From NCBI GenBank assembly GCA_013815405.1, contig JACDGF010000004.1:1-17933 (forward strand): DNA of 17,933 nucleotides, read 5' to 3'. Shown here piece by piece: positions 3,575 through 17,886 of the stretch. The notes under the pieces are model-generated. The model did not search any database, was not told the origin of the DNA, and was given only the letters and a program-made list of their open reading frames with translations. Numbering within the stretch: position 1 is the stretch's first letter; every line of letters starts with the position of its first letter. This DNA is from Caulobacteraceae bacterium. Lineage in GTDB: Bacteria; Pseudomonadota; Alphaproteobacteria; Caulobacterales; Caulobacteraceae. The translations under genes were made by a program, and so were the position numbers.

Positions 3575-3583
3575 CACCGTCGA

Positions 3584-4792
3584 TCAGAGCCTTAGGGTCA
3601 TGTCCGGGCGCACGCTTGCGCCGATTTCGCCGCCCGGGGCCGAAGGAGCCGGGCTCCCGCCGATCTTCTTGCCGTAGATTCGGTAGGTCTTGTAGATCCG
3701 CGCGCCGAAGCTCTCGAGGATGTGGCGCATGGCCAGGTTGTCCTCCAGGATCCAGGAATATTCGCCCTGGGTGATGCCGGCCTTCACCCCCTCGCGGCGG
3801 ATGGCGTCGAGGATCACGAAGGGGGCGAAAGCGCCGCGCGGGTCGCGGGCGAACTTGCGCTTCACCCCCATCAGCGGCACCCGGCCGCGCTTGACGCCGG
3901 CGACCTTCAGACGCCACAACAGCTTGGCCCAGCCGAAGGGGAAAAGCCGGCCGTTCAGATCGAACGTGGCGTCGTTGAGGTTGGGCAGAAGAACCCCTAA
4001 GCCCGCCGCCTCGCCGTCGATCTCCAGGAACCAGACGAGGCGGGGGTGAAGCAGCGGCTTCAAGGCTCGCGCCAGGTGAGTCGTCTCGGCCTCGGTGACC
4101 GGCGAGGCGCCCCAATTCTGGGACCACGCGTCGTTCAGGATGTCGACCAGAATGCGCACGTCCTCATCGAGCCGGTCCATCCGGACCGGCCGCAGATTGA
4201 CCCCGGCGGGAAGCGGCCGGTTCAGCCGCGCCTGCACGCCCGGGGTGAAGACCGGAACGTCGGAGATATAGGCGTAGACATCCTTGGCCTTTTCATAGCC
4301 CTGCTCCTCGATCCGCCGGGCGGCGTAGGGTGGGTCGTGGCCCATCATCAGCATGGGCGGCGCATCGAAGCCGTCGATCAGCAGCCCGACCTCTTCGTTG
4401 ATCGAGAGGTTGAACGGCCCCGTCGCCCGCGCCCGCCCCCGCGCGCGCAGCCACGCCTCGGCCTCAGCGAAGAGCGCCGCGAAGACCTCCGGATCGTCCT
4501 CCGCGGCGATCATCCCGAAATAGCCGGCCGGCGCGGCCGCGTCGGTGGCCGCCAGATGGTCGATCTGGGCGCTGATCCGGCCCACATCGCGACCGCCCTT
4601 GTGGGCCAGCCAGAACTGGACCTCTGCATGCTCGAAGAAGGGGTTGTGCTTGGCGGACAAGGCCTCACGACGTTCCAGGAGCAGCGGCGCGATCCAGTTC
4701 GGATCGCCGGCGTTGAGCCGCATGGGCACGCGAATGAACCGTTCCAGCTGCGCGGCCGTCGAGACCGGCAGGATGTCCACCGACGCGCTCAT
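3584..4792 (-). CDS. bcerS: Bacterial ceramide synthase, GNAT-fold N-acyltransferase
   Basis: A 402-residue protein of the long hypothetical family (YghO-like, GNAT fold) to which the Caulobacter ceramide synthase (CCNA_01212) belongs. I recognise it by family features and by its place in the operon, not by alignment. Typical stretches are IRVPMRLNAGDPNWIAPLL (20-38), a region around 125-150 with GPFNLSINEEVGLLIDGFD, and the C-terminal GNAT-like part with EYSWILEDNLAMRHILESFG followed by YKTYRIYGKKI, as in substrate-acylating GNATs. The reaction would be transfer of an acyl chain from acyl-CoA to the amine of (3-oxo)sphinganine to form (dihydro)ceramide in the cytoplasm. The ATG at 4792 overlaps the stop of the LptF-LptG gene (ATGA), so translation is coupled. 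It is the last gene of the operon and converges on the YiiX-like gene. Confidence 0.85.
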   Translation of the reverse strand: MSASVDILPVSTAAQLERFIRVPMRLNAGDPNWIAPLLLERREALSAKHNPFFEHAEVQFWLAHKGGRDVGRISAQIDHLAATDAAAPAGYFGMIAAEDDPEVFAALFAEAEAWLRARGRARATGPFNLSINEEVGLLIDGFDAPPMLMMGHDPPYAARRIEEQGYEKAKDVYAYISDVPVFTPGVQARLNRPLPAGVNLRPVRMDRLDEDVRILVDILNDAWSQNWGASPVTEAETTHLARALKPLLHPRLVWFLEIDGEAAGLGVLLPNLNDATFDLNGRLFPFGWAKLLWRLKVAGVKRGRVPLMGVKRKFARDPRGAFAPFVILDAIRREGVKAGITQGEYSWILEDNLAMRHILESFGARIYKTYRIYGKKIGGSPAPSAPGGEIGASVRPDMTLRL

Positions 4793-7083
4793 CCCTCGGC
4801 GTAGAGCAGGATGCTGACCGCGCCGGCGGCGAACCCCACCGGCGCCCCCCAGGCGGCCGCCAGGGGCGGAAGCACCCCGGTCTGCCCCATGGCGGTAAGC
4901 AGGCCGTCGACCACCAGATAGAGCAGGCCGCAGCCCAGGCCGAAGATCACCGGAGCGGTGCGGTTGCTGCGCGCGTGGCCAAGCGCCGTGGGCAGGGCCA
5001 AAAGCAGCATGATGATCGGCGCCAAACCCTCGGCGACCGTCCGGTAGAGACGGGTCTTGAACTGGTTGGGGCTCTTGTCCACGGGCCCTTTTCCGAACAG
5101 CGAGCGGAGGGCGGTTCCGGAGGTGATTTCGTAGGTGTTGGAGAACAGGCGCGCCGCGTCGCTGGGCCGCAGGCTGGTGCGCCAATCCATCGCCGCGACG
5201 GTCATGGTCTCGGCGCGGCTTTCGTGAAGATCGGTGACCTTGGCGTCGTGAAGCCTCCAGCCGCCGTTCTGCCGCGTGGCGTCCACCGCGGTCATCCGTC
5301 GGACGAGCGCCTGGCGATCGTCACGCTGATAGATGGAGACTCCGTGCAGGATCGCCGCTCCGGGAGACGCCGATTTTATGGTGACCACGTCGCCGTCGAT
5401 CCGGAACCAGCGCGGCGCCGGGGCCTTTTTCGCCGGGCCGGGGGCGCTCGCGGCCCACCAGGTGGCCAGAGCCTGCTGCGCCCGAGGGGTGACCTGATCG
5501 GTCACCACCAGGTCCAGCGCCGCCACCGCAAGGGCCACCGGCAGGGTGCGCCTGAAAATCTGGAACAGCGACAGGCCCGTGATGCGCATCACCACCAGCT
5601 CGCTGTTACGGGCCAGTTGGCTGAAGGTGAAGATGGCGCCGGCGAGCACGGCGAAGGGCGCCACCTCCTGAAACAGGAACGGCAGGCGCAGGAGCATGTA
5701 GCGGCCGATCTCGAGCACGCCGCCGCGGGCGAGGATGTCGCTGGTTCGTTCCAGAAGATCGATGAGCTGCAGAAGGCCCATCAAGGCGGCGGCGGCGGCG
5801 GCGGTGCGCGCCGCCATGATGCGGGTCAGATAGGCCGAGAGGCTCAAGGCCCCCCTCTTGTGCATCGCGGTCGGGGCGACCTTGAAGCGCCGCTCGAACA
5901 GCGCCTCGAGACGCAGGAACAGGCCGGAGATGGGGGTCTCGCCGGGCCGCCGGCGGCTCGACAGGAAGAGCCAGAGCCCGAAGGCGGCGATCAGGGCGAA
6001 GGCGCCGCCCAAGGCGAGAGCGGGATCCACCTTGCCCGAGGCCGCGAAGCTCTTGCACAGGGTCACGCCGTGATGGAAAGCCACCAGGACCACCGCCCCG
6101 ACGATCATTCCGGGCGCCCGGCGTCCCCGCTTGGCGGCCAGGGCGAGGGGCAGGGCGAGCAGGGGGAGGAAGGGGATGGCCAGGGAACGGGCGAGACGGG
6201 CGTAGAGTTCGGCCTGCAGCACCCTTTTGGGGATCATCGCGTCGGGGCGTTTTATCTCCGCGGCCAGTTCGGGAAGCGTGAGTTCCTGCTCGTCCCCGCC
6301 CCGGGGGCTCAGGGTCGCGCCGCCGCTCAGGATCTCGTGGTCGGTGAAGTCCCCGAACCGGAGCAGGCGGATGGCGCCCTTGGCGGCGTCCGACAAAATC
6401 AGGCCGCCGCCCAGGCGAAGGTCGGTGGTCTTGCGGTCCGGGCGCAGGCCCAAGGCGCCCTCGCTGGCGGTGACCACGGTCTCGCCGTCCGCCGACTTCC
6501 GCCGGATGAAGACGCCCTTGAGGCTGCGGCCGGTGGCGTCCACCTCATCGGCGGTGATGGTGAAGTCGGGGCCGGCGTGGATGAACACCTGCGGATCAAG
6601 CTGGGCGGTCCATCCGGCCTGGGTCGCGGCGTTGAGCACGGCGCGATAGCCGAAGCGGCTATAGGGTTGGAGAAACCCGGTCAGCAGGATGCTGATCACG
6701 CCCAGCAGGACGCCGGCGAACACCAGGGGCGCGACGATCCGCTCGAAGGGAATGCCGCCAGCTAGGGCGGCGTCGATCTCGCTTTCCTCGTCCAGCCGGG
6801 CGATGACGATGAACATGGCCACGAAGAACGAGGCCGGCAGGGCCAGTCCCAGCTGATAGGGAACCAGATTGGTGATCAGGCCGAAGAGATAGCCCAGCCG
6901 GGCGCCGTTGGAGGCCAGCTCGTTGATCAGGCGAAGGGTCTGTTCCAGAAGGAACGCGACCAGGGTGACGCCCAGCACCGCCGCCGCCGGCATGGCCAGC
7001 ATGCGCAGTAGGTACCCATCGAGGATAGCCGGCCGCCAGGATGTCCGGTAGGCCACCGGGGCGGCCAAGGTGATGGCCGTCAC
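4789..7083 (-). CDS. LptF-LptG fusion permease (YjgP/YjgQ tandem)
   Basis: A 764-residue membrane protein made of two LptF/LptG-type halves in one chain. Half one has TM segments near 26-48, 65-95 and 118-138, a periplasmic beta-jellyroll at about 155-275 and TM segments at 298-377. Half two starts near 414, has TM segments at 420-442, 466-490 and 508-528, a jellyroll at about 555-650 and final TM segments at 686-762. Each half carries the expected cytoplasmic coupling stretch (about 95-116 and 489-510). LptF and LptG are normally separate proteins of about 360 residues that form, with LptB, the extractor of LPS from the inner membrane. Here the fusion sits between SPT and ceramide synthase, so its likely cargo is a sphingolipid rather than LPS (inference). 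The GTG at 7083 lies 5 bases after the SPT stop; its own stop overlaps the next ATG. No LptB-like ATPase is in the window. Confidence 0.9.
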   Translation of the reverse strand: MTAITLAAPVAYRTSWRPAILDGYLLRMLAMPAAAVLGVTLVAFLLEQTLRLINELASNGARLGYLFGLITNLVPYQLGLALPASFFVAMFIVIARLDEESEIDAALAGGIPFERIVAPLVFAGVLLGVISILLTGFLQPYSRFGYRAVLNAATQAGWTAQLDPQVFIHAGPDFTITADEVDATGRSLKGVFIRRKSADGETVVTASEGALGLRPDRKTTDLRLGGGLILSDAAKGAIRLLRFGDFTDHEILSGGATLSPRGGDEQELTLPELAAEIKRPDAMIPKRVLQAELYARLARSLAIPFLPLLALPLALAAKRGRRAPGMIVGAVVLVAFHHGVTLCKSFAASGKVDPALALGGAFALIAAFGLWLFLSSRRRPGETPISGLFLRLEALFERRFKVAPTAMHKRGALSLSAYLTRIMAARTAAAAAALMGLLQLIDLLERTSDILARGGVLEIGRYMLLRLPFLFQEVAPFAVLAGAIFTFSQLARNSELVVMRITGLSLFQIFRRTLPVALAVAALDLVVTDQVTPRAQQALATWWAASAPGPAKKAPAPRWFRIDGDVVTIKSASPGAAILHGVSIYQRDDRQALVRRMTAVDATRQNGGWRLHDAKVTDLHESRAETMTVAAMDWRTSLRPSDAARLFSNTYEITSGTALRSLFGKGPVDKSPNQFKTRLYRTVAEGLAPIIMLLLALPTALGHARSNRTAPVIFGLGCGLLYLVVDGLLTAMGQTGVLPPLAAAWGAPVGFAAGAVSILLYAEG

Positions 7084-7088
7084 GCCAG

Positions 7089-8312
7089 CTAGATCACTCC
7101 GCCGGCGCGACGGCGGTCGGAGCCGAGGAATCCCAGCTGGCGGCCGACGTCGGCGAAGATGGCGAGGGCGGTATCGATCTGCTGGACGCTGTGAGCCGCG
7201 CTGACGCTGGTGCGCAGGAGCCGGACATTGGTGGGCGTCGCCGGCGGCAGGGCCAGGTTGAGGTAAAGGCCGGCTTCCAGAAGCATCTTCCAGAAGATCA
7301 CGGCGACCTCCTGGTTGGGCATCGCGACGGCGACGATGGGATTGGCTTCGGGTCCGGTCTCGAAGCCCATGGCGCCGAGGCCATCGTAGAGGCGGCGGGC
7401 GTTGCGCATTAGGCTGACGCGCAGTTCCGGTTCGGCCCGAACCTTGACCAGGGCCTCGAGGGTCGAGGCGACCACGCCGGGGGGCAGGGAGGCGGTGAAC
7501 ATATAGGGCCGACAGACGATCCGCATGAGGTCGAAATCGGGACTGTCGGAGACGCAGAAGCCGCCGACGCTGCCCAGGCTCTTGGAGAAGGTCCCGACGA
7601 TGAAATCCACGTCGGCTTCGACGCCAGCCGCCTCGGCCAGGCCCCGGCCGGTTTCGCCCAAAACACCCAGAGAGTGGGCCTCGTCGACCAGGAGGTAGGC
7701 CCCCGTCTCGCGCTTCACCGCGGCGATTTCCTTCAAGGGCGCGGTATCGCCGAGCATCGAATAAATGCCCTCGACCACGATCAGACGATCGCCCGGCGCG
7801 CCTTCCAGGCGCCGCAGCCGCTTGTAGAGATCGTCGGGGCTGTTGTGCCGGAATCGAATCACCTCCGAGGCGCCCAGGCGCGATCCGTCGTAGATGCTGG
7901 CGTGGCTGTCGGCGTCGAGCATCAGGTGGTCGCCGCGGCCCACCAGGGTCGAGAGCACCCCCAGATTGGCCTGGTAGCCGGTGCTGAAGACCATGGCGTG
8001 TTCACGGCCATAAAACGAGGCGAGCGCCTGCTCGAGCCGCATATGGCCGTCATAGCTGCCGTTGGCGATGCGCGAGCCGGTGGTGCCGGTGCCCTGGCGG
8101 CGCGTCGCCTCCACCGCCTTTTCGATGCAATCGGCGTCGAAGGTCAGGCCCAGATAGTTATTGGTGCCCAGCAAAATCGTCCGCCGGCCGGCGAGCATGC
8201 CCTCGGTGGGCGACAGTACGCTGTCGAAGCGGACGTTGAACGGATCGACGCCGTGCTCGCGCAGTTCATCATAGGCAAGCTTATAGGCGGCGTGTTTGGC
8301 GAGAATCGTCAT
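7089..8312 (-). CDS. spt: Serine palmitoyltransferase
   Basis: A 407-residue PLP enzyme of the alpha-oxoamine synthase family. It condenses L-serine with a fatty acyl thioester to give 3-oxo-sphinganine and CO2, the committed step of sphingolipid synthesis. Visible landmarks are NNYLGL (51-56), His138 (DSHASIYDG, stacks on PLP), DEAHSLGVLG (210-219), the PLP Lys244 in GTFSKSLGSVGG, and Arg367 in LLRTSVSAAHS, matching the carboxylate-binding Arg of the Sphingomonas enzyme. The length agrees with soluble bacterial SPT (about 420). Alternatives in the family are KBL, AONS and ALAS. The operon with ACP, acyl ligase and ceramide synthase decides for SPT. The ATG at 8312 overlaps the acp stop by 4 bases, so acyl-ACP from the coupled gene is the likely substrate. 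It lacks a membrane anchor and should be cytoplasmic or peripheral. Confidence 0.93.
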   Translation of the reverse strand: MTILAKHAAYKLAYDELREHGVDPFNVRFDSVLSPTEGMLAGRRTILLGTNNYLGLTFDADCIEKAVEATRRQGTGTTGSRIANGSYDGHMRLEQALASFYGREHAMVFSTGYQANLGVLSTLVGRGDHLMLDADSHASIYDGSRLGASEVIRFRHNSPDDLYKRLRRLEGAPGDRLIVVEGIYSMLGDTAPLKEIAAVKRETGAYLLVDEAHSLGVLGETGRGLAEAAGVEADVDFIVGTFSKSLGSVGGFCVSDSPDFDLMRIVCRPYMFTASLPPGVVASTLEALVKVRAEPELRVSLMRNARRLYDGLGAMGFETGPEANPIVAVAMPNQEVAVIFWKMLLEAGLYLNLALPPATPTNVRLLRTSVSAAHSVQQIDTALAIFADVGRQLGFLGSDRRRAGGVI

Positions 8313-8605
8313 GCTGGGGTCCCGCTGCGCAGGTCTTGGACTGCGTGGATCAAATCGCCCACGGTTTGAATCTGGGCGATCCGGTCGAGGGGGATGGAGA
8401 TATCATAGAAATCCTCGATCGCCATGACGAAATTCATCACCCCCAAGGAATCCATGCCGAGATCCTCGACAATATCGGTGCCGTCACTGACCTGGACGGG
8501 ATGGCCGAGGACTTGCTCGAAGATAGCCGAAATATCGTCCCGGACGGGCCGTCCCCACCCGACCACCTTACTGTCCACGAGCGCCAACTGATGGTTTTGC
8601 CGCAT
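8309..8605 (-). CDS. Sphingolipid acyl carrier protein
   Basis: A 98-residue acyl carrier protein with the phosphopantetheine site at Ser53 in DLGMDSLGVMNF and the helix-III region EDFYDISIPLD. It should present a fatty acyl thioester to the SPT encoded immediately after it (ATGA overlap). The N-terminus is about 17 residues longer than in the other ACP of this window. The ATG at 8605 has only a weak AGGCGG before it. A GTG at codon 10 (VDSKVVGWGRP) would give a more usual length but has no visible ribosome-binding site. About 125 non-coding bases separate it from the upstream acyl ligase gene, enough for its own promoter. Confidence 0.92.
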   Translation of the reverse strand: MRQNHQLALVDSKVVGWGRPVRDDISAIFEQVLGHPVQVSDGTDIVEDLGMDSLGVMNFVMAIEDFYDISIPLDRIAQIQTVGDLIHAVQDLRSGTPA

Positions 8606-8655
8606 GCCGCCTGTCTGCCGTTTCGCTTGAAGGTCGCGAAGCTCCGGCGCGCACC

Positions 8656-8682: not shown

Positions 8683-8730
8683 CTGCGCGCGGGCGGCCTC
8701 CCCGATCAGCCCGGCGGACCGTCGGCGCAA

Positions 8731-10461
8731 TCAGGCGAGGGCCCGCTCCCCCATCTTGGCGAGGCCGCCGGAGAGATAGCGGCTCCGGGCGCGCGAACGG
8801 CTCAGCTTGCCTGAGGATGTCTGTGGCAGGCTGTGGGGAGGGACGAGCATGACCTCGGCGTCCAGCCCGTGGCGGGCCCTGATCAGATTGGCCACCGCGC
8901 CGCGCAGGCTTTCCCGCGCCGCCGGGTCGCTCAGACGGCATTGGATCAGGGCCACCACGCGTTCTCCTTCGACATCCGGAATCGAGAACACGGCGACATC
9001 TCCGCTGCGCAGGCCGCCGATCTCCTGCTCGGCGCTCCACTCCAAGTCCTGGGGCCAGACATTGCGGCCGTGGACGATGATCAGATCCTTGGCGCGCCCG
9101 GTGATCACGATCTCACCGCCAAGGCTGTAGCCGAGGTCGCCGGTGTCGAGCCACCCGTCGGGCGACAAGGCCTTGGCGGTCTCATCGGGCTCGCCGAAAT
9201 AGCTCCTCATGAGGCTGGGCCCTCGCGCGAAGATTCGCCCCACGCCGCGGTCGGCCAGGACGGCGCCGCCGGCGTCACGCACTTCGACCTCGTGACCGGC
9301 CAGCACTTTACCGCAGAGCGCGAATTCGCGCGCGCGGGCGCGTGCCGAGTGCGAGGGCTTGCCAGCGTGAGCGTAGCGCTCCAGGCGGTCCACGTCGATC
9401 ATGTCCGTGCGCAGGCCTCCGCCAAGGGGGGCCAGGGTGAGCGCCAAGGTCGCTTCGGCCATGCCGTAGCTGGCCACGAAGGCGCGAGGGTCGAAACCCG
9501 CCGGAGCGTAGGCGTCGCTGAAGGCGCGCAAAGGTTCGGGCCGGATCATGTCGCCGCCCAGGCCGGCGACGCGCCAGGAGGCCAGGTCGAGTCCGGCGAG
9601 GCTGGCGGTCCCGGCGCGACGGGCGGCGAGATCATATCCGAAGGTCGGCGCGTAGGAGATGCTCCCGCGGCGTTTGGAAATCAGGTCCAACCACAGCCCG
9701 GGCCGGCGCACGAAGGCGCCGGTGGGTAGAAGGTCGACGGAGACCTGAAAAGCCAGGCTGCACAGCAGCATGCCGACCAGGCCCATGTCGTGGTAGAGCG
9801 GCAGCCAGGAAACGGTGCGGTCCTCGGCCGAGACATCCAGCCCGCGCCCTCCGATCGCCACCACATTGGCCATCAGGGCGCTCTGGGTCACCGCCACGCC
9901 GAGAGGAAACCGGGTGCTCCCGGAGGAGAACTGCAGATAGCACAGGCCAAACGGGTCCGGCGGCGGCAGGGCCTCCTCTCGCGCCAACGGCAGTTCGGTC
10001 ATCGCGCCGGCGCGCAAGAGGCCGAGCCCCGCTCCCGCCTGCTCAAACCATTCGGCCAGGGCCGAGGGCGCGAAAGCGGCTCGGGCCCCCGCCGACATCA
10101 TCAGGCGCCGGACGTGAGCCACATAAGCATCCTTGCCCGCGAACGGCGCCGGCAGAGGCACGGGGGCGGGGACCAGCCCCGCGTATTGGCAAGCGAAGAA
10201 GGCGCGCAGGAAGTCGCCGTCGCTGTCCGCCGCCAAGGCGACGCGATCGCCAGGCTCCAGTCCCACCGCCAGGAGGCCGGCGCCGAGGCGACACGCTTGT
10301 TCGCGCAGCGCCGAATAGGGCAGGACCTCGACCAGTTCGCCGCGGAGCGAATGAATATTGACGCCGGTGGCCTGGCCGGCGGCGCAGTCCAGCGCCTCGG
10401 TGATGGTGGAAAAGTCGCCGCGGCGGAGCGTTCGGCCGGGCGCGGTGGGCGTCGGGGTCAA
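8731..10461 (-). CDS. Fatty acyl-AMP ligase / acyl-ACP synthetase
   Basis: A 576-residue ANL-superfamily adenylating enzyme. Visible motifs are the P-loop A3 motif FSSGSTRFPLG (178-188), A5 SYGMAEAT (331-338), A7 Asp439 in LDTGDLGYS, A8 Arg456 in ITGRAKDLIIVHG, and the catalytic A10 Lys552 in TSSGKLSRSRAR. The length and the FSSGST and WLPLYHDMGLVG stretches resemble fatty acyl-AMP ligases, which pass acyl-adenylate to an ACP, more than acyl-CoA ligases. The usual P-loop Lys/Arg before Gly is Leu187 here. The neighbouring acp is the natural acceptor, and a homologous ligase belongs to the Caulobacter ceramide cluster. The start is a TTG at 10461 with a poor ribosome-binding site. A stop precedes in frame, and only non-standard codons (CTG, ATT) lie between, so the N-terminus is uncertain by about 10 residues. 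Confidence 0.88.
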   Translation of the reverse strand: MTPTPTAPGRTLRRGDFSTITEALDCAAGQATGVNIHSLRGELVEVLPYSALREQACRLGAGLLAVGLEPGDRVALAADSDGDFLRAFFACQYAGLVPAPVPLPAPFAGKDAYVAHVRRLMMSAGARAAFAPSALAEWFEQAGAGLGLLRAGAMTELPLAREEALPPPDPFGLCYLQFSSGSTRFPLGVAVTQSALMANVVAIGGRGLDVSAEDRTVSWLPLYHDMGLVGMLLCSLAFQVSVDLLPTGAFVRRPGLWLDLISKRRGSISYAPTFGYDLAARRAGTASLAGLDLASWRVAGLGGDMIRPEPLRAFSDAYAPAGFDPRAFVASYGMAEATLALTLAPLGGGLRTDMIDVDRLERYAHAGKPSHSARARAREFALCGKVLAGHEVEVRDAGGAVLADRGVGRIFARGPSLMRSYFGEPDETAKALSPDGWLDTGDLGYSLGGEIVITGRAKDLIIVHGRNVWPQDLEWSAEQEIGGLRSGDVAVFSIPDVEGERVVALIQCRLSDPAARESLRGAVANLIRARHGLDAEVMLVPPHSLPQTSSGKLSRSRARSRYLSGGLAKMGERALA

Positions 10462-10497
10462 GGGCGGTGGTCCAATCGAAACCGTCTTCAGAGAATG

Positions 10498-10537
10498 GCG
10501 ACGTCGCGCCCATCATGGCACAGGCCGCGACGTCGCG
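10498..10537. promoter_or_regulatory. Twin GCGACGTCGC palindromes in divergent promoter region
   Basis: The 150-base gap between the acyl ligase (minus) and ABC exporter (plus) contains the perfect palindrome GCGACGTCGC twice, at 10498-10507 and 10527-10536. The second copy extends to the 12-base palindrome CGCGACGTCGCG. The centres are 29 bases apart. Two copies of one palindrome between divergent genes look like operator sites for a dimeric regulator. The regulator is unknown. Confidence 0.4.
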
Positions 10538-10611
10538 TCATTATCGACAATGCCGCAAGACCTGATAGTCGGTAGACGCGGCGCGAGGCGGTGTGGAGAT
10601 ATGGCCCCTAG

Positions 10612-12465
10612 ATGAACGAACCGGGCGCGATCGAGGCCGCGAAGGACGGCCGTCCCAGCCTTGGGGCGCTTATGAAGGAGGCGTTCCTGATCGACGCCTG
10701 GCGGCGGGAAAAGCGGCGCGATATCCGTCCCCTGACCCGCCTGGCGCCGTTCGTCCGCCGCCACCTTTCCGATGCGGTCCTCGGTATCGTCTTCCTGCTG
10801 CTCTCGACCGGCGCTCTGCTCGCGATCACCGGGGGGGCGCGCCAGGTTCTGGATCAGGGTTTCGAACTTCACAGCCGCGCGGCCCTGGTGCGGGTTTTCT
10901 CGTGGCTTGGGCTGGCCGCCCTCATCCTCGCGGCAACGACCGGCCTTAGGGTCTATTTCCTGTACAAGCTGGGCGAGCGGGTGGTGGCGGATCTGCGCCA
11001 GACTGTCTTTCGCCATGTGCTGAACCTGGATCTCACCCACTTCCTGAAGCTACGCACGGGTGAGGTCCTGTCCCGCATGACCACCGACATGACCATCGTC
11101 GAGTCGACGGTAGGCAACGTCATTCCCGCCGCCATGCGAAACCTGCTCACCCTGAGCGGAGCGCTGGTGCTGATGGTGGTCGTGAGCCCCAACGTCACCG
11201 GCCTGGTGCTGGTGTTGATCCCGCTTCTGCTGACACCCCTGTTCCTGATCGGCCGGCGCATCCAAAGACTCTCCGTCCGGGCGCAGGACCGGTTCGCCCA
11301 CGCGATCGGCTATGCCGGCGAGGGGCTCGAGGCCTTGGAGACGGTTCAGGCCTTCGGTCAGGAAGACTTCGTTTCGGCGCGGTTCGATAGCGCCATCGAG
11401 CGCGCGTTCGACGCCTCGCGGGCGCAGATTCGCGCCAGCGGCCTGATGTCGGGCCTGATGATCATCCTGATCTTCGCCGGCATGCTCATCCTGCTCTTCC
11501 AGTGCGCTATCGCCGTGATCGTCGAACGCTCGATGACCCCAGGCGCCCTCCTGCAGCTGCTGATCCTGGCCATGGTCGCGGCCACGGCGCTTCGCGACCT
11601 TTCCGAGGTGTGGAGCCAGATCCAGAAAGCCTCGGGCGCCGCCGAACGCATCGCCGGAATGATGGACGCGTCTTCGACCATCGCCGCGCCGGCCCGCCCG
11701 ACGCCTCTTCCCGAACCGGCGCGCGGGGAAGTGAGTTTCGAGAACGTCAGCTTCGCCTATCCGGGCCGGCCGGACTTGGCCGCCTTGAGCGGGTTTTCAC
11801 TGCGCGTACGGCCGGGTGAGCGGATCGCGCTCGTGGGGCCCTCCGGCGCCGGAAAGAGCACGGTGTTCCGCCTCCTGCTCCGCTTCTACGATCCGGACGC
11901 CGGCGCCGTGCGGATCGACGGCGTCGATCTCACCGAGACCTGCCCTCGCGAGGCCCGCGCCCGCCTGGCGCTGGTGGCTCAGGACGCGCCCCTGTTCTCC
12001 GGTTCGGCGGCGGACAATATCGGCTTCGGACGCCATGGGGCGAGCGCCCAGGACATCCGCGTCGCCGCCAGGGCCGCCCAGGCGGAAGGTTTCCTGATCG
12101 CCTTGCCCGACGGCTTCGACACCGCCGTGGGCGAGCGGGCCAAGACCCTTTCCGGCGGACAGCGCCAGCGCATCGCCATCGCCCGGGCGCTGATTCGCCT
12201 CTCCCCCATCCTGCTGCTGGACGAAGCCACCAGCGCCCTGGACGCCGAGAACGAGCGCCTCGTCCAGCAAGCCCTGCATGTCGCCATGGAGGGGCGCACC
12301 ACCCTGGTCATCGCTCACCGCCTCGCGACGGTGCTGGAGGCCGACCGCATCGTGGTCATGGACGCCGGCCGGGTGGTCGAGCAGGGCCGCCACGGCGAAC
12401 TGCTCGCCCGGGGCGGGCTCTACGCCCGCCTGGCGCGGCTTCAGTTCGGGGCCGAGGCGGCCTGA
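10612..12465 (+). CDS. MsbA-type lipid ABC exporter (fused permease and ATPase)
   Basis: A 617-residue half-transporter of the MsbA/LmrA class that works as a homodimer in the inner membrane. The exporter membrane domain (about residues 45-345) has six predicted TM segments, including 55-75, 97-118, 173-192, 196-214, 282-303 and 311-328. The ATPase domain (about 372-610) has Walker A GPSGAGKST (409-417), Q-loop VAQDAP, signature LSGGQ (513-517), Walker B with Glu538 in ILLLDEAT, and H-loop His569. MsbA relatives flip lipids across the inner membrane; the cargo here is unknown. It is divergent from the acyl ligase and converges, with 5 bases between stops, on the CDP-alcohol transferase. ATG 10612 directly follows an in-frame TAG and its GGAG is 13 bases away. 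Met21 (10672) is an alternative. A lipid-linked role near the ceramide genes is inference. Confidence 0.92.
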   Translation: MNEPGAIEAAKDGRPSLGALMKEAFLIDAWRREKRRDIRPLTRLAPFVRRHLSDAVLGIVFLLLSTGALLAITGGARQVLDQGFELHSRAALVRVFSWLGLAALILAATTGLRVYFLYKLGERVVADLRQTVFRHVLNLDLTHFLKLRTGEVLSRMTTDMTIVESTVGNVIPAAMRNLLTLSGALVLMVVVSPNVTGLVLVLIPLLLTPLFLIGRRIQRLSVRAQDRFAHAIGYAGEGLEALETVQAFGQEDFVSARFDSAIERAFDASRAQIRASGLMSGLMIILIFAGMLILLFQCAIAVIVERSMTPGALLQLLILAMVAATALRDLSEVWSQIQKASGAAERIAGMMDASSTIAAPARPTPLPEPARGEVSFENVSFAYPGRPDLAALSGFSLRVRPGERIALVGPSGAGKSTVFRLLLRFYDPDAGAVRIDGVDLTETCPREARARLALVAQDAPLFSGSAADNIGFGRHGASAQDIRVAARAAQAEGFLIALPDGFDTAVGERAKTLSGGQRQRIAIARALIRLSPILLLDEATSALDAENERLVQQALHVAMEGRTTLVIAHRLATVLEADRIVVMDAGRVVEQGRHGELLARGGLYARLARLQFGAEAA

Positions 12466-12470
12466 TCCAT

Positions 12471-13361
12471 TCAGCTTATCGCCGCCGCCAACGCCCGGTT
12501 TCGCCGGCCGCGCCACAGGGTGAAACCGGCCAGCGCGAGGTTGAGGGCGACGACCTCGAACAGGAAGAACCACAGCGGCCGGTTCGCCAGAATGGCCAGA
12601 AAGGCCGCGATCGTGCGGCTGTTGGCGCCCAGCACGGCGCTCGCCTTGACCACCGGTGCGAAATATCGGCGGTAGTGACCCTTGAGCGCCTGGGCGGTCT
12701 CCCCCCCGGCCGCCAGTCTCGGCTCCATCACCGCCTCCAGGCGGGCCTCTCCGGGGCTAACGAGGACGGACAGGCCGACGTAGAGGTCGCCCAGAAGGCC
12801 CTGGACGGCGCCGGACCGGTTCAGGGACTCCAGGTTCTGGCGCATCCAGGTCGCGCCGTGGACCCAGCGCCGATAGGTCTTGCGGCCGGTCTCATAGGCG
12901 TTGGCCTGGATGAAATGCGAGAGGGCCGCAGCGACCGCCCAGGCCCAGGCGCCGAGCCCCAGGGTGCGCTGGAGGATGACCGCGAAGGCGACATAGACGA
13001 GGGCCTGGCTCACATGATCGCAGACGCCGTCGACCAGCTCCCCGGAGGTGGACGCCCGGCCGGTGCGACGGGCCAGATCGCCGTCGGCGCCGTCCAGGAC
13101 ATGCCAGGCGAACAGGAAGGCGAGGCCGGCGAATGCGCCCCACGGCGCATTGAGCCGGGCGTAGCAGAGCGCCCCCGCCGCCGCCATGAACACGCTGGCG
13201 ACCGAGACCTGATCGGGGGTCACGTGCGTGCGGGCCAGCCCGTCGACGAGCGCCCGCGAGAGCGGGTGGATCAGGTAGCGGTTGGTCGCCTCCTCGATCT
13301 CGACCGGGCGTCCCGGCGCCGCGCCGGCTGGCGGCGTGGCAAGAAGGGGGCTTGATTCCAC
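12471..13361 (-). CDS. CDP-alcohol phosphatidyltransferase
   Basis: A 296-residue integral membrane enzyme of the CDP-alcohol phosphotransferase family. The full catalytic motif is present: Asp90, Asp93-Gly94, Ala97-Arg98, Gly107, Asp111 and Asp115, matching DxxDGxxAR(x8)GxxxDxxxD exactly. Hydrophobic segments lie near 52-68, 74-90, 117-146, 206-222 and 244-282. Such enzymes move a phospho-alcohol from a CDP-linked donor to an alcohol acceptor. The length exceeds the common 180-200 residues of PgsA/PssA because of a loop at about 150-235. It is divergent from the MIPS/cytidylyltransferase fusion, so CDP-inositol is the likely donor and a lipid alcohol (ceramide or diacylglycerol) a likely acceptor. 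This would be the reverse of classical PI-phosphate synthase, where the lipid carries the CDP. The start is a GTG with GGAG 12 bases ahead. The acceptor is unproven; inositol phosphate (DIP synthesis) is the alternative. Confidence 0.88.
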   Translation of the reverse strand: MESSPLLATPPAGAAPGRPVEIEEATNRYLIHPLSRALVDGLARTHVTPDQVSVASVFMAAAGALCYARLNAPWGAFAGLAFLFAWHVLDGADGDLARRTGRASTSGELVDGVCDHVSQALVYVAFAVILQRTLGLGAWAWAVAAALSHFIQANAYETGRKTYRRWVHGATWMRQNLESLNRSGAVQGLLGDLYVGLSVLVSPGEARLEAVMEPRLAAGGETAQALKGHYRRYFAPVVKASAVLGANSRTIAAFLAILANRPLWFFLFEVVALNLALAGFTLWRGRRNRALAAAIS

Positions 13362-13409
13362 GGCGGTTTTTGGCTCCTTCGGCGATCGCGCCGGTCGGTC
13401 TTGTGACGG

Positions 13410-13434
13410 GCGACGTCAGGCGATAGCCTAAAAC
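13410..13434 (+). promoter_or_regulatory. Candidate promoter of the inositol-phosphate fusion gene
   Basis: CCTAAAAC (13427-13434) matches seven of eight positions of the Caulobacter -10 element GCTANAWC. Ten bases upstream is GCGACGT, a partial match to TTGACGS. A leader of about 85 bases would follow. Judged by eye only. Confidence 0.3.
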
Positions 13435-13463
13435 CCGTCCAAACGGACTCTGGATCGATGGAA

Positions 13464-13483
13464 CGCGCGCCTAAAAGCGCGCG
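13464..13483 (+). other. GC hairpin in the leader of the inositol-phosphate fusion gene
   Basis: CGCGCGC, CTAAAA loop, GCGCGCG: a perfect 7-bp stem about 40 bases before the ATG at 13525. It could form in the mRNA leader. No riboswitch class is recognised and no T-run follows, so its effect is unknown. Confidence 0.3.
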
Positions 13484-13524
13484 CCGGCCCCGTTACAAAT
13501 ACCTCTCCCTCAAAGGAAGACTTC

Positions 13525-15339
13525 ATGACCAAGATTCGCGCGGCGATTGTCGGAGTGGGCAATTGCGCGAGTTCCCTCGTGCAGGGCGTGGCCTATTACC
13601 GGATGGCCAACGACAACGGCGTGGGCCTGATGCACTGGGATCTCGGCGGATATGAGCCGACCGATTTGGAGTTCGCCCTGGCCTTCGACATCGACGAACG
13701 CAAGGTCGGCAAGGATCTCGCCCAGGCGATCTTCGCCAAGCCTAATTGCACCGCGGTCTTCGCCGAGGTGCCTAGCGCCGGCGTTACGGTGCGCATGGGC
13801 GCGGTGCTGGACGGCATGGCCGACCACATGGCGGCGATGCCGGCGGATCGCAGCTTTCGCCTCGCCGAAGCGGCCCAGCCCGATAAGAGCGATGTCGTCG
13901 GCGCCCTGAAGGACGCGGACATCGACGTTCTGGTGAATTTCCTGCCGGTGGGCTCCGAGGACGCGGTGAAATTCTACATGGAATGCGCCCTGGAGGCGGG
14001 GGTCGGGGTGGTCAATTGCATGCCGGTGTTCATCGCCAGCGACCCGGAGTGGGAACAGCGATTCAAGTCCGCCGGCCTGCCCATCGTCGGCGACGACGTG
14101 AAGGCCCAGTTTGGGGCGACCATCGTCCACCGCGCCCTGACCAATCTCATGCGCCAGCGCGGGGTGCGGCTGGACCGGACCTATCAGCTGAACACCGGCG
14201 GCAACACCGACTTCCTCAACATGATGGACCGCACCCGCCTGGCGTCGAAGAAGATCTCCAAGACCGAGGCGGTGCAGGCGGTGCTCGCCGAACGCTTGGC
14301 GGACGAGAACATCCACGTCGGCCCCAGCGACTATGTGCCGTGGCTGAACGACAACAAGCTGTGCTTCCTTCGACTCGAAGGCGCCCTCTTCGGCGCGGTG
14401 CCGATGAACATCGAGGTGCGCCTGTCGGTGGAGGATTCGCCCAATTCCGCCGGGGTGGTGATCGACGCCATCCGCTGCTGCAAGCTGGCGCTCGACCGCA
14501 ATCAAAGCGGCGCGCTCATCGGCCCGTCGGCCTTCTTCTGCAAGCACCCGCCGATCCAGTTCACCGACGACGAGGCTCAGCGGATGACCGAGAGCTTCAT
14601 CGAGCCGCGCCCGAGCCTCGCCGGGCGGGTCAAATGCCTGATCGTGGCCGCCGGCCAGGGCACGCGCCTTCGCGACGTGGCCCCCTCCAAGCCCCTGGCG
14701 GAAATCAAGGACGTGCCCCTTATCGAGCGGGTGATCGACACCGCCCAAGCCGCAGGCCTGAGCGAGTTCGTGGTGGTGACCGGCTATGAAGGCGCGCGGG
14801 TGGAGACCTTCCTGCGGGGCTTGGCCAGTCGCCGGGGCCTCTCCATCACCTGCGTGCGGAACTCCGACTGGACCGCCTCCAACGGCCTGTCGGTCGCGGC
14901 CGCCGAGGGGCATCTGGGCGACCAGTTCGTGCTGCTGATGGCCGACCATCTGTTCGACCCGACCATCGTCGCCGACCTCCTGGCCGGCGGCGGGGACGCG
15001 GACGGCGTGGTCCTGGCCGTCGACCGCCGCCTCAAGAGCCCGATCGTCGATCCCGAGGATGTAACCCGGGTGACGACCGACGCGCGGGGGAACATCCAGG
15101 CGATCGGCAAGGGGATCGCCGGTCACAATGCGCTGGACACCGGCATCTTCCTCGCCTCCAAGGCCCTGATCGGGGCCATCCGCGCGGATCTCGCGGCCGG
15201 CGGCGACGGGAGCATCTCGGCCGGGATGCGGCGCCTGGCCGCCGAGGGCCGCGCCTCGGCCTTCGAGATCGGCGACCGCTTCTGGCTCGACATCGACGAC
15301 GCCGTCGCCCATGGCGAGGCCGAAAGGGTGACTGCCTAG
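13525..15339 (+). CDS. Fused myo-inositol-phosphate synthase / inositol-phosphate cytidylyltransferase
   Basis: Two enzymes in one 604-residue chain. Residues 1 to about 366 are a complete bacterial-type myo-inositol-phosphate synthase (Ino1): NAD site IVGVGNCASSLVQGV (8-22), FLPVGSE (139-145), LNTGGNTDFLNM (222-233), SDYVPWLNDNK (268-278) and VEDSPNSAGVVIDAIR (302-317). Stand-alone bacterial Ino1 has about 360 residues, so nothing is missing. Residues 368-604 are a nucleotidyltransferase: CLIVAAGQGTRL (371-382), Lys389 in PSKPLAEI, SDWTASNGLSVA (447-458), the metal site MADHLFDP (472-479) and WLDIDD (587-592). The N- and C-terminal motifs are those of inositol-1-phosphate cytidylyltransferase from di-myo-inositol-phosphate pathways. 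Together: glucose-6-phosphate to inositol phosphate, then with CTP to CDP-inositol. The start has AGGAAG 6 bases ahead. It is divergent from the CDP-alcohol transferase, its probable user. The stop TAG is the edge of a repeat element. Confidence 0.88.
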   Translation: MTKIRAAIVGVGNCASSLVQGVAYYRMANDNGVGLMHWDLGGYEPTDLEFALAFDIDERKVGKDLAQAIFAKPNCTAVFAEVPSAGVTVRMGAVLDGMADHMAAMPADRSFRLAEAAQPDKSDVVGALKDADIDVLVNFLPVGSEDAVKFYMECALEAGVGVVNCMPVFIASDPEWEQRFKSAGLPIVGDDVKAQFGATIVHRALTNLMRQRGVRLDRTYQLNTGGNTDFLNMMDRTRLASKKISKTEAVQAVLAERLADENIHVGPSDYVPWLNDNKLCFLRLEGALFGAVPMNIEVRLSVEDSPNSAGVVIDAIRCCKLALDRNQSGALIGPSAFFCKHPPIQFTDDEAQRMTESFIEPRPSLAGRVKCLIVAAGQGTRLRDVAPSKPLAEIKDVPLIERVIDTAQAAGLSEFVVVTGYEGARVETFLRGLASRRGLSITCVRNSDWTASNGLSVAAAEGHLGDQFVLLMADHLFDPTIVADLLAGGGDADGVVLAVDRRLKSPIVDPEDVTRVTTDARGNIQAIGKGIAGHNALDTGIFLASKALIGAIRADLAAGGDGSISAGMRRLAAEGRASAFEIGDRFWLDIDDAVAHGEAERVTA

Positions 15340-15387
15340 AGCTGATGCGTCTGCACGGAACAGATGCGAACGCTGAATCAGGCTCTA
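15337..15387. repeat. TAGAGC-bounded palindromic element 1
   Basis: An imperfect inverted repeat starts with the TAG stop codon of the fusion gene. The outer arms are TAGAGC-TGA (15337-15345) and TCA-g-GCTCTA (15378-15387). Inside, GCGTCTG (15347-15353) pairs with CAGATGC (15361-15367) with one G-U pair. It carries a GAATC (GANTC) site. This type of short intergenic palindrome ending in GCTCTA is common in Caulobacterales genomes as I recall them; copy number here cannot be checked. Confidence 0.5.
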
Positions 15388-15398
15388 CACTTTTGACT

Positions 15399-15452
15399 CT
15401 AGAGCAAAGTATCCCCGTTCAGACGATTCCGTCTGAACGGGGTTTGCTCTAG
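15399..15452. repeat. TAGAGC-bounded palindromic element 2, probable bidirectional terminator
   Basis: A strong inverted repeat between two convergent genes. The outer arms CTAGAGCAAA (15399-15408) and TTTGCTCTAG (15443-15452) match over 10 bases. The inner arms CCCCGTTCAGACG (15413-15425) and CGTCTGAACGGGG (15430-15442) match over 13 bases around an ATTC loop. A four-base GTAT bulge separates the arms on one side only. The right edge contains the TAG stop of the glycosyltransferase gene. The hairpin would stop or slow transcription from both sides. A GATTC (GANTC) site lies across the loop. Confidence 0.75.
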
Positions 15453-16657
15453 GCGCCCAAGGCCAGGGCGCGCGGCGCCGCAGCCTGTTCGAGGAAGAGG
15501 TTGGTGTAGGCCTCGACCATCCTGCCGATGTCGAAGGTGGGCGCGCGGGCCGCCCCGTTGACCCGGAATCGCTGGGTGAGTTCGGGCTGGGCGAGGAGCA
15601 TGTCCATGGCGACGCCGAACGCGGCCGGATCCTCGGGCGGTACGACCCAGCCGCTCTGACCGTGCTCGATCAGCTCCCGCGGACCGAAGTCGCAGGCGGT
15701 GACCAAGGTGGGGACGCCGCAGGCCAGGGCTTCGGCGACCACGCTGGGGCACCCTTCCCAGCGCGAGGGCAGGACGAACAGCCGCGCCTTGGAGAACCAG
15801 GCCCAGGGATTGGCGCTGAAGCCCGGAAACTTCACCCGCGACCCCAGGCCCAGGGCGGCGGCCTGCCGCTTGAGGTCACCCTCGCGGCTTCCGCGGCCCA
15901 GGATCACCAGGTCATGGTCCTTGGCCGCCTCGCTGGCGGCGAAGGCCCGAAGCAGCAGATCATGGCCTTTCTGGTATTCGAGCCGGCCGGCGGTGACGAT
16001 GAACGGCCGCGCCTGCGGCCGGGGGAGGGGTTCGCGGGCGAGCCGCTGGATATGCGCCACATCGATCGGGTTGTGGATCACCCGGATGCGGGTGCGGTCC
16101 AGATCGAGCGAATCGTGCAACCCGCGCGCCATTTCGTGGGAATTGGCCAGGAAGCAGTCGGCGGCGCGATAGCACCGGCGGGTCAGGCTCTTGATCAGGG
16201 CCCGACCGGCGGGATTGGCCAGCTCGTCGTCGATCACCTTGTCGGTGTTGTTGCCCTCGCGCGCGATCCAGCGGGGACGCGCCTCGCCTAATCCCTTGAG
16301 GACGAAATAGGTGAGGACGCTGATCCCCTTGAGGAAGCTCATGACCACATGGGGCCGGTGGGCGCGGATCATGGTGGAGACGTTGGCCGGCGCGAACACG
16401 GCCCCGGCGATCAGCTTGCGGGGCCGGTAGAAGCCTGAATTGTGACCCTCGAAGGCCAGCCAGTCCTGTCCGATGGGGGAGGTGTCGATCCGGCCCGCGT
16501 CGGCGTCGCGCAGGAAGGGGCCGGCCTTGCGCAGCAGACCCATCCGAACATCGATGAGACCGGGATCGCAGCGGTTGAGCAGATGGACGGCCACCCGCTC
16601 GGCCCCTCCCCCATGCAGGGAGGACAGCAGCAACATGACGCGCACCCGCTCGTTCAT
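15449..16657 (-). CDS. GT4-family glycosyltransferase
   Basis: A 402-residue retaining GT-B glycosyltransferase of family GT4. The N-terminal domain opens with the acceptor-side loop LLSSLHGGGAERVAVHL (10-26), as in WaaG/PimA-like enzymes. The linker holds VIHNPIDV (193-200). The donor domain has TAGRLEYQKGHDLLLRAFA (222-240) and the E-x7-E motif Glu301/Glu309 in EGCPSVVAEALACG. It moves a sugar from a nucleotide donor to a lipid or polysaccharide acceptor; neither is known. The ATG at 16657 was chosen over a start ten codons upstream because GGGGAG lies 7 bases ahead of it. It converges on the CDP-inositol fusion gene and is divergent from the PLD-like gene. A role in glycosylating an inositol lipid (as PimA does in mycobacteria) or lipid head group is possible, but LPS or capsule synthesis is as likely. 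Confidence 0.9.
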   Translation of the reverse strand: MNERVRVMLLLSSLHGGGAERVAVHLLNRCDPGLIDVRMGLLRKAGPFLRDADAGRIDTSPIGQDWLAFEGHNSGFYRPRKLIAGAVFAPANVSTMIRAHRPHVVMSFLKGISVLTYFVLKGLGEARPRWIAREGNNTDKVIDDELANPAGRALIKSLTRRCYRAADCFLANSHEMARGLHDSLDLDRTRIRVIHNPIDVAHIQRLAREPLPRPQARPFIVTAGRLEYQKGHDLLLRAFAASEAAKDHDLVILGRGSREGDLKRQAAALGLGSRVKFPGFSANPWAWFSKARLFVLPSRWEGCPSVVAEALACGVPTLVTACDFGPRELIEHGQSGWVVPPEDPAAFGVAMDMLLAQPELTQRFRVNGAARAPTFDIGRMVEAYTNLFLEQAAAPRALALGA

Positions 16658-16761
16658 GCTATCTCCCCGCCCGGCGAGTCGCGCCAAACGAGGCTTCTAG
16701 ACGGGCCAGGCGACAAGGGGCAACGGCGTTCTCGTCTGGGAGCGCCGGGCGCGAGGGCGGC

Positions 16762-17886
16762 TTGACGAAGATTGAACTGCTCGTGGGGTCGGACGCCTTC
16801 TGGGCGCGGGCGGCGCGGGACATCGCTTCGGCGCGGCGTCGGCTCTACGTCCAGGCGATGAGCTTCGAGGGCGACGACGCCGGCAAAACGGTCGCCGGCG
16901 CGATCATGGCGAGCCCGGCGCGCGACAGGCGGGTGCTCGTCGACGCCTATTCGACGGTGGTGATCAGCGATCGTTTCGTCCTTTCGCCGGCCGGTCTCTT
17001 CGACCGCGCCCTGCGCGCGGAAGCCAAGGCGACCCGCGCGATGTTCGACGACCTGGTCCGGGCGGGCGCGCGAGTGCGCGTGACCAACCCGATCGGCCCC
17101 CTTTATCTCCACTATCCGGCCCGCAACCACAAGAAGCTGATCGTCGCCGACGAGGCCGCCTATATCGGCGGGATCAATTTCAGCGACCATAATTTCGCGT
17201 GGAGCGACCTCATGCTGAGGCTCGAGGGCGAGGCCACGGCCCGGGTTCTGGCCCGGGACTTCGAAGCCACCTTCGAAGGCGTGGCGCGCCCGTGGCGCGA
17301 GGATTTCGGCGACCTGGCGCTCCAGGGCCTCGACGGTCGGAGCAATGCGCGAGGGTTCGGCGAGATCATCGGCCTGATCGAGGCGGCGGCGCGGGCCATC
17401 ACCGTCGTCAGCCCTTATCTGACCTTCCCGTTCACCGACGCCCTGGCGTGCGCCGCAAAGCGCGGGGTGGCGGTGACCTTGATCACGCCAATGGCCAACA
17501 ACAAACCCCTCCTGCGAACCTATCTCCTCGAAGCCGCCCGGCGGGCCGGATTCCACGTGCGCCTGACCCCCGGGATGAGCCACCTGAAGGGCCTTCTGAT
17601 CGACGACCGGTATCTGGTGCTCGGCTCTTCCAATTTCGACTTCGTGAGCGTCGCGGCGGAGGAGGAGCTGATGGCGGTCATCGCCCGGCCGGGGGTGATC
17701 GCCGACTTCCGCCAGAGGATCATCGCGCCGGGCCTGCAAAACGCTTTTTCCCCCGACGCCCATGGCGCGTCCCGCCTGGCCGGTTGGGCCGCCCGCGCCG
17801 CGTTGCGGATCGCCGACCTCTCCATTCGCCGCGCCCGCCTGGCGCCAAGGTCGGCGGGGGACTGGCGGGCGCGGGGCGAAGGATGA
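16762..17886 (+). CDS. Phospholipase D family, cardiolipin synthase-like protein
   Basis: A 374-residue protein with two HKD motifs: His123-Lys125-Asp130 in NHKKLIVADEAAYIGGINF and His274-Lys276-Asp281 in HLKGLLIDDRYLVLGSSNF. Both end in the GG/GS-x-N typical of cardiolipin synthases (ClsB-like) and related phosphatidyl transferases, which move phosphatidyl groups between alcohols through a phospho-His intermediate. No N-terminal TM segments are seen, as in ClsB. Substrates cannot be told; cardiolipin, or another phospholipid head-group exchange, is likely. The start is a TTG with GAGGG 6 bases ahead. The stop overlaps an ATG at 17883, so it may be the first gene of an operon running out of the window. 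It is divergent from the glycosyltransferase, 104 bases apart. Confidence 0.88.
   Translation: MTKIELLVGSDAFWARAARDIASARRRLYVQAMSFEGDDAGKTVAGAIMASPARDRRVLVDAYSTVVISDRFVLSPAGLFDRALRAEAKATRAMFDDLVRAGARVRVTNPIGPLYLHYPARNHKKLIVADEAAYIGGINFSDHNFAWSDLMLRLEGEATARVLARDFEATFEGVARPWREDFGDLALQGLDGRSNARGFGEIIGLIEAAARAITVVSPYLTFPFTDALACAAKRGVAVTLITPMANNKPLLRTYLLEAARRAGFHVRLTPGMSHLKGLLIDDRYLVLGSSNFDFVSVAAEEELMAVIARPGVIADFRQRIIAPGLQNAFSPDAHGASRLAGWAARAALRIADLSIRRARLAPRSAGDWRARGEG

Follow-up and report, generated by a model that had tools for sequence, protein, structure and literature searches.

The contig JACDGF010000004.1 of a Caulobacteraceae bacterium (assembly GCA_013815405.1) was analysed over positions 1 to 17,933, and this whole stretch of 17,933 nucleotides is called the window below. 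The element of interest is a divergent gene pair comprising a fusion of myo-inositol-phosphate synthase (Ino1) with an inositol-phosphate cytidylyltransferase (IPCT), and a class I CDP-alcohol phosphotransferase that we call PT-A. Here we examine this pair as a candidate inositol-headgroup module for a ceramide-based lipid. It is arranged as follows:

12471..13361, minus strand: PT-A, class I CDP-alcohol phosphotransferase, 296 amino acids, with a core of six transmembrane (TM) helices and a four-helix insert (residues 173-244)
13362..13524, no strand: divergent intergenic region of 163 bp between PT-A and the fusion
13525..15339, plus strand: Ino1-IPCT fusion, 604 amino acids, residues 1 to about 362 being the myo-inositol-phosphate synthase and about 369 to 604 the inositol-phosphate cytidylyltransferase

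The original prediction, made from the letters of the DNA, placed Ino1 and IPCT on one chain beside a complete, divergently transcribed CDP-alcohol phosphotransferase, and this observation is confirmed. Both domains of the 604-residue open reading frame (ORF) are matched by Pfam families and by solved structures. Inos-1-P_synth (PF01658) scores 121.2 bits with a cut-off of 27, and NTP_transf_3, at 57.7 bits, is also above its cut-off. The alignment of residues 2-359 spans almost all of Ino1 from M. tuberculosis (1gr0, E 1.1e-117), and the IPCT structures 2xme from A. fulgidus (E 8.5e-14) and 4mnd (2.2e-13) are matched by residues 366-548. The cut-off of the mycothiol-type Ino1 equivalog TIGR03450 (638 bits) is not reached by the fusion, which scores 441.9 bits. 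From 7,999 candidates scored, both Pfam domains are present in 99 of the 120 best-listed homologues, a few of which are fragments, and the fusion is thus not an assembly accident. The two-domain homologues listed extend from Caulobacteraceae (87% identical), to which the named closest relatives among the listed matches belong, down to Nitrospina (55-56%), and the remaining 21 are mostly separate Ino1 proteins of 368 amino acids. A second, partial Inos-1-P_synth match of 43 residues and 38 bits is found elsewhere in the genome (G000:C326:4370-4498), where BLAST detected no Ino1 relative.

Based on profile comparisons, the second domain resembles IPCTs more closely than other nucleotidyltransferases. 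Its profile scores 94.8, 93.9 and 80.2 bits with three solved IPCTs, compared to 48.6 for MurU and 41.2 for the phosphocholine enzyme LicC. Against the NCBIfam IPCT model, this domain of the fusion reaches 87.9 bits versus 55.3 for the next family, a lead of about 33 bits, and stays far under the cut-off of the bifunctional model. The catalytic R, K and D are in place, and the best nucleotidyltransferase match is IPCT. An M.DH motif occurs in 80 of 80 IPCT loci; since it is partly forced by the search pattern we do not count it as evidence, while DTG lies outside those patterns.

CpgD, a related enzyme from Caulobacter, supplies the CDP-glycerate from which a ceramide headgroup is built (PMC12275187). 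We recognized CpgD in G329, a Caulobacter-like genome, as judged by CpgD, of the same family as the window, from first residues in agreement with a published primer and from residue numbers in agreement with the published R16, K26, N90, N110, D112, S170 and W201. On the IPCT model CpgD scores 67.8 bits versus 68.7 for the next family, and thus has no IPCT lead. The R and D of the window domain align with R16 and D112; its Lys aligns with that of 2xme, while the MAFFT alignment with CpgD does not pair it with K26. Among the three residues by which CpgD contacts glycerate, N90 is kept, N110 is replaced by M and S170 by the D of a DTG stretch; DTG is present in all three solved IPCTs and M in two of them. 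The IPCT half is therefore predicted from its sequence to make CDP-inositol, the intermediate originally proposed, and we are confident of this assignment.

PT-A is recognized by Pfam CDP-OH_P_transf (43.4 bits, cut-off 22). Its eight-residue CDP-AP signature (D90, D93, G94, A97, R98, G107, D111, D115) is complete and invariant across 46 alignment rows, and the motif DxxDGxxAR-8-GxxxDxxxD together with the six-TM core identifies a class I CDP-alcohol phosphotransferase. More specialized models score far below their cut-offs, with 32.5 of 580 bits for IPCT-DIPPS (NF041135), 44.1 of 170 for phosphatidylinositol-phosphate (PIP) synthase (NF045883) and 53 of 180 for archaetidylinositol phosphate synthase. 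The host genome (2.72 Mb in 513 contigs, 85% complete) contains two PF01066 matches, PT-A and one that is PgsA-like by sequence and neighbours. No canonical PIP synthase was seen in this 85% complete genome, in line with the originally proposed route that bypasses PIP. A likeness to human CEPT1 (ARRT...SP.GEL.D..CD), found in Caulobacteraceae rows and absent from Emcibacter-type rows, was not used. The intergenic region 13362-13524 contains no sigma-70 consensus.

The remaining genes of the window include a ceramide locus to the left of the pair:

left end of the window, first two ORFs: esterase-like ORF and GNAT-like ORF (read by eye)
after the GNAT-like ORF and left of the YiiX-like ORF: ketoacyl synthase
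between the ketoacyl synthase and the ceramide synthase: YiiX-like ORF (read by eye)
3584..4792, minus strand: bacterial ceramide synthase-like (bCerS-like) protein, 402 amino acids, no family-library match
4789..7083, minus strand: LptF-LptG fusion permease, over cut-off in the family scan
7089..8312, minus strand: serine palmitoyltransferase (SPT), NF047599 674 bits, cut-off 500
8309..8611, minus strand: acyl carrier protein (ACP)-like, final 100 residues of ORF 8309-9040, start uncertain
8731..10461, minus strand: fatty acyl-AMP ligase, NF006624 over cut-off
10612..12465, plus strand: ABC transporter, MsbA-related, TIGR02204 737 bits, below the cut-off of 780
15449..16687, minus strand: GT4-type glycosyltransferase, with 53-77% identical relatives near the module in loci L089, L090 and L094
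16762..17886, plus strand: PLD-family (cardiolipin-synthase-like) protein, with 50-62% identical relatives near the module in the same three loci

Ten window proteins were scanned with the family libraries; ORFs 3-767, 682-1254, 2945-3574 and the ACP-like ORF lay outside these scans. The ORF at 3584-4792, without a match in Pfam or NCBIfam, is one that we take to be bCerS, and its homologues (44-63% identical) are located within other SPT loci. The ORF at 8309-8611 is presumably an ACP by its motif; its BLAST matches are ACP-like ORFs adjoining SPT in other genomes. With SPT, LptF-LptG and the acyl-AMP ligase over their cut-offs, the predicted ceramide context of the pair is confirmed as real. 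A 39% identical relative of the PLD-family protein is present in the G365 locus described below. Between the convergent fusion and glycosyltransferase genes, a strong inverted repeat with 13-base arms and a 4-base loop was noted by eye (15413-15442) and is probably a terminator common to both genes.

The ceramide locus of G329 harbours the acyl-AMP ligase, SPT, LptF, LptG and bCerS as in the window, and in addition a Cpg-type transferase, a phosphoesterase and CpgD. A CpgD query of the host genome, 85% complete, returned the window IPCT as its sole match; a CpgB query was run without a positive control. As G329 has glycerate genes where the window has inositol genes, the headgroup part of the locus looks exchanged, although at this completeness a swap is no more than suggested.

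We then characterized the distribution of PT-A. A scan with an IPCT alignment yielded 433 confirmed places, and the 80 best were retained as loci. Transferases that scored above 115 bits against the PT-A of the window, a limit that we chose ourselves, were defined as PT-A-type. Such transferases are present in 27 of the 80 loci. Locus L165 is counted as the 28th because it is a contig of G208, whose PT-A lies on another contig (L070). The PT-A loci belong to Caulobacteraceae, Sphingomonas parva, S. deserti, S. adhaesiva, Lichenicoccus, Rhodovastum, Azospirillum sp. B4, Rhodospirillales, Emcibacteraceae, Kordiimonadaceae, Bacterium BMS3Bbin13, along with a few Alphaproteobacteria and Proteobacteria that bear loose taxonomic names. 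For comparison we used 22 loci in which IPCT either forms a fusion with a DIPPS-like transferase (17) or adjoins another kind (5), from Desulfobacterales, other Deltaproteobacteria, SAR324, Nitrospina, Neomarinimicrobiota, Gammaproteobacteria and Mariprofundus. In a maximum-likelihood tree of 81 transferases, PT-A forms a single clade of 29 rows including the window and G208 (support 98/97), and the fused IPCT-DIPPS proteins form a separate clade of 22 rows, a set different from the 22 comparison loci (support 86/94). Transferases from the CPG-like ceramide locus of G029 branch beside PT-A with weak support (88/66) and long branches.

The presence of PT-A is coupled to that of SPT. Among the 28 genomes in which PT-A lies near IPCT, 25 exceed the curated 500-bit cut-off of NF047599, compared with none of the 22 comparison genomes, whose best score is 379 bits. 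In two PT-A genomes SPT is split over two contigs (G266, 495 and 217 bits; G250, 420 and 243 bits), and G263, of 1.2 Mb and unstated completeness, has PT-A without SPT. The two groups differ mostly in phylum or class, a point against taking the contrast at face value because kinship inflates it, and the coupling was therefore tested inside the home order. Among its 150 genomes, PT-A is present in 5 and SPT in 48, and all 5 PT-A genomes have SPT (Fisher 0.0029); three of the five belong to one family. All five also have Ino1, which occurs in 8 of the 150, and an IPCT-domain match is found in exactly these five. In a survey of 241 genomes of the class, PT-A at E <1e-20 occurs in G000, which passes the SPT cut-off, and in G208, where a contig end truncates the SPT gene and the score therefore stays just below it.

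A lack of co-occurrence with ceramide genes was originally named as a finding that would refute the idea, and the outcome of this test did not refute it. The coupling belongs to PT-A and not to the fusion as such, since fusions adjoining another transferase type (G128, G006) or none (G054) occur in genomes without SPT over the cut-off. Ino1 or the fusion was rejected as a sphingolipid marker: strong Ino1 (E <1e-50) is present in 20 of the 241 genomes of the class survey, only 4 of which have SPT over the cut-off (G000, G173, G193, G170), with G208 just under it, and SPT exceeds the cut-off in none of seven Alphaproteobacteria with Ino1 and/or IPCT in which another transferase or none adjoins (G128, G006, G048, G053, G054, G014, G192). 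Four loci of Alphaproteobacteria without SPT over the cut-off (L072, L071, L073, L088) carry the fusion in G006, G128 and G054 and Ino1 in G053. Three of these genomes (G006, G128, G053) have a different transferase, with a long N-terminal region, either directly adjacent or at a distance of up to about 6 kb. In two further Alphaproteobacteria (L075, L076) a thermophile-like block comprises Ino1, an intervening gene, which belongs to the Inositol_P family in L076, and IPCT-DIPPS.

The gene neighbourhoods connect PT-A with lipid genes in part of the loci. In G208, from another family, the fusion lies about 25 bp after bCerS, with SPT and a fatty-acid-hydroxylase gene ahead of it, and a second contig, seemingly the same locus continued, carries the rest of SPT, an ACP, an epimerase-like gene, an acyl-AMP ligase and PT-A. 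SPT, bCerS or acyl-AMP ligase is present in the fetched flank of 7 of the 28 PT-A loci (L090, L093, L094, L138, L163, L165, L167). In loci whose ceramide genes lie elsewhere, PT-A is often accompanied by genes for moving lipids. A MOP flippase is found in the fetched flanks of 14 of 28 PT-A loci versus 0 of 22 comparison loci; the reference sequences came from an order-mate and two of the PT-A loci, a choice that makes matches there more likely, and the flank lengths vary between loci. The flippase also occurs in 2 of 30 loci of neither group (L118, L131). In the order-mate G292, Ino1, PT-A, the MOP flippase, an MMPL exporter and IPCT all point in one direction, and G365 has the same gene kinds with three other ORFs separating PT-A from the rest. 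In these loci (L179:6878-10854, L180:3924-7897) the flippase was identified by PF01943 in G292 and by position and sequence start alone in G365; the G292 exporter is HpnN-like, below the model's cut-off. BLAST with two references found no inositol monophosphatase in the 28 PT-A or the 22 comparison loci, and because it is absent from both groups it cannot tell modules for di-inositol phosphate from those for lipids.

Glycosyltransferases of the Gly_transf_sug family (PF04488) adjoin the inositol module or ceramide genes at L069:2405-3370 and L114:7730-8719, with BLAST relatives in L138 and L163. PF04488 is the family of the fungal inositol-phosphoceramide mannosyltransferases, which hints that the product may be glycosylated.

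The family of S. adhaesiva was surveyed for relatives of PT-A, which occur (E up to 1e-15) in 24 of 199 genomes. Eighteen of these were read at 11 kb: Ino1 and IPCT adjoin PT-A in 15 and not in three (L195, L205, L209), and eight of the relatives score under 115 bits. Eleven loci (L196-L203, L206-L208) have a second CDP-alcohol transferase between Ino1 and PT-A, divergent to PT-A, with open frames of about 440-595 amino acids, longer than PT-A and closer to Cpg-type transferases. This enzyme could attach another phosphoinositol.

The module shares features with several known systems. The Caulobacter ceramide diphosphoglycerate (CPG2) system (CpgD, CpgA-C; PMC12275187, PMC13228409, PMC11324152, PMC10331486) likewise combines a headgroup CDP-activated by a related nucleotidyltransferase, a CDP-alcohol transferase and a ceramide locus, but uses glycerate, a ceramide kinase first and a transferase of another clade. 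Thermophile IPCT and IPCT-DIPPS enzymes (2xme, 4mnd, 4jd0) pair a CTP:inositol-1-phosphate cytidylyltransferase with a CDP-inositol-dependent class I CDP-AP, whereas in the window the fusion partner of IPCT is Ino1 instead of the transferase, and PT-A is of another clade, has the four-helix insert and is coupled to SPT. For a Prevotella/B. vulgatus cluster a CDP-inositol route without a PIP step has been proposed and is unproven (PMC9246714). It also brings together MIPS, an NTP transferase and a CDP-alcohol transferase, in Bacteroidetes, as separate genes and with a HAD hydrolase; the likeness is by description. B. thetaiotaomicron BT_1522-1526 leads to the same end product, inositol-phosphoceramide, using instead a PIP synthase, a PIP phosphatase and an AUR1-like transferase (PMC9246714). 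The route of Jorge 2015, as cited in PMC9246714 and PMC10191378, builds inositol lipids from CDP-inositol as well, namely dialkylether glycerophosphoinositol lipids of hyperthermophiles and not sphingolipids.

Given thermophile CDP-inositol, the proposed Prevotella route and Caulobacter CDP-glycerate as precedents, no new kind of chemistry is involved. The originally suggested novelty in Alphaproteobacteria is partly anticipated by CpgD. No report of an Ino1-IPCT/PT-A module in this class was found in the titles and abstract starts of the papers listed from an open-licence library, outside which most subscription papers lie.

In the mechanism that we propose from these sequences, the Ino1 half would convert glucose-6-phosphate to inositol-1-phosphate, which the IPCT half of the same chain would join with CTP to give CDP-inositol. 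PT-A would then hand the phosphoinositol group of CDP-inositol to a lipid alcohol, with the SPT/bCerS ceramide as the most likely acceptor. Inositol-phosphoceramide would thus arise in a single step, and neither a PIP intermediate nor a phosphatase would be needed. LptFG and ABC exporters may carry the lipid outward, and the glycosyltransferase may glycosylate it. The scheme can be likened to the Kennedy pathway and to Caulobacter CpgD with its CDP-alcohol transferase, inositol replacing glycerate. On balance, the pair probably constitutes an inositol-headgroup module for a ceramide-based lipid. CDP-inositol is very likely the donor of PT-A and a membrane lipid quite likely its acceptor; provided that the acceptor is a lipid, it is probably ceramide rather than diacylglycerol (DAG). 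We give an even chance to the more specific view that PT-A is a hitherto undescribed CDP-inositol:ceramide inositolphosphotransferase, a six-TM bacterial Kennedy-type enzyme making inositol-phosphoceramide in one step, convergent with the eukaryotic IPC route and spread over Caulobacterales, Sphingomonadales, Acetobacteraceae, Azospirillaceae and Emcibacteraceae/Kordiimonadaceae, with some sphingomonads perhaps adding a second phosphoinositol, as in the step from CPG to CPG2.

Several observations weigh against a lipid-directed module. PT-A has six TM helices and its model ends with TM6; the three to four extra C-terminal TM helices of CEPT1-type enzymes, which accompany lipid acceptors where six helices go with soluble ones (PMC4634129), are absent. 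The soluble-acceptor enzyme DIPPS is among its closest folds, and the conserved arginines R160 (46 of 46 rows) and R249 (42 of 46) could bind a phosphorylated acceptor. By sequence reading, R249 may match the second Arg of the PIPS RxxR motif. The two genes are divergent in the window and do not form one operon, and 21 of the 28 PT-A loci have no SPT, bCerS or acyl-AMP ligase in the fetched flank. Ino1 alone does not track SPT, and fusions without PT-A exist. An E. coli control genome also passes the NF047599 (SPT beta) cut-off, and an SPT match is therefore not proof of sphingolipids. The 115-bit threshold and the 22 comparison loci were fixed after the neighbourhood results had been seen, and no biochemistry or lipidomics was found for any PT-A member.

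The six helices, the arginines and the homology to IPCT and DIPPS would suit a module making soluble di-inositol phosphate as in thermophiles, with the ceramide genes adjoining by accident, and the alphaproteobacterial G014 and G192 indeed have Ino1 and an IPCT-DIPPS block with a gene between them (Inositol_P in G192). Since PT-A forms a separate clade, tracks SPT and is often near flippases and lipid exporters, while G014 and G192 lack SPT over the cut-off, we consider this quite improbable. Transfer to DAG by the same module, giving phosphatidylinositol directly and perhaps followed by exchange onto ceramide, is unlikely to a lesser degree. The Prevotella/B. vulgatus cluster, with its NTP transferase, CDP-alcohol transferase and HAD, is proposed to act in this way (PMC9246714). 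DAG, moreover, is generally expected in every such cell. Yet this reading leaves the coupling of PT-A to SPT without a reason, and the family scans, which covered 10 proteins of the window, returned no HAD-family match.

The two other alternatives concern the donor. That the nucleotidyltransferase half makes another CDP-alcohol is suggested by CpgD, an enzyme of the same kind from a Caulobacter-type ceramide locus with 33% identity over 179 amino acids to the window domain and with N90 in common; the fusion to, or adjacency of, Ino1, the score margin that CpgD itself lacks and the IPCT-type residues in place of N110 and S170 make a headgroup other than inositol very improbable. We assign a slight chance at best to PT-A being a PIP synthase acting on CDP-DAG and inositol phosphate, with CDP-inositol used elsewhere. 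Its weak matches to the PIP and archaetidylinositol phosphate synthase models point this way, but they remain far below both cut-offs, the structure is nearer to AF2299/DIPPS than to PIPS, and IPCT and PT-A co-occur exactly in the home-order survey.

Bacteria are said to contain inositol lipids only rarely, and the alphaproteobacterium Novosphingobium acidiphilum is reported to have an inositol-like dihydroceramide lipid for which no gene is known (PMC9246714). A link to this organism was not established, as the named organisms among the best 120 of 511 relatives of the S. adhaesiva transferase are all Sphingomonas. The module offers a concrete gene set and named strains for bacterial inositol sphingolipids, namely Sphingomonas adhaesiva, S. 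parva, S. deserti, Lichenicoccus roseus and Azospirillum sp. B4, and a probable route for activated inositol onto a membrane lipid that has so far been seen only in part in other organisms. If our interpretation is correct, PT-A would run counter to the view that CDP-alcohol transferases with lipid acceptors carry additional TM helices, and alphaproteobacterial ceramide loci would carry exchangeable CDP-activated headgroup modules, with glycerate in Caulobacter and inositol here.

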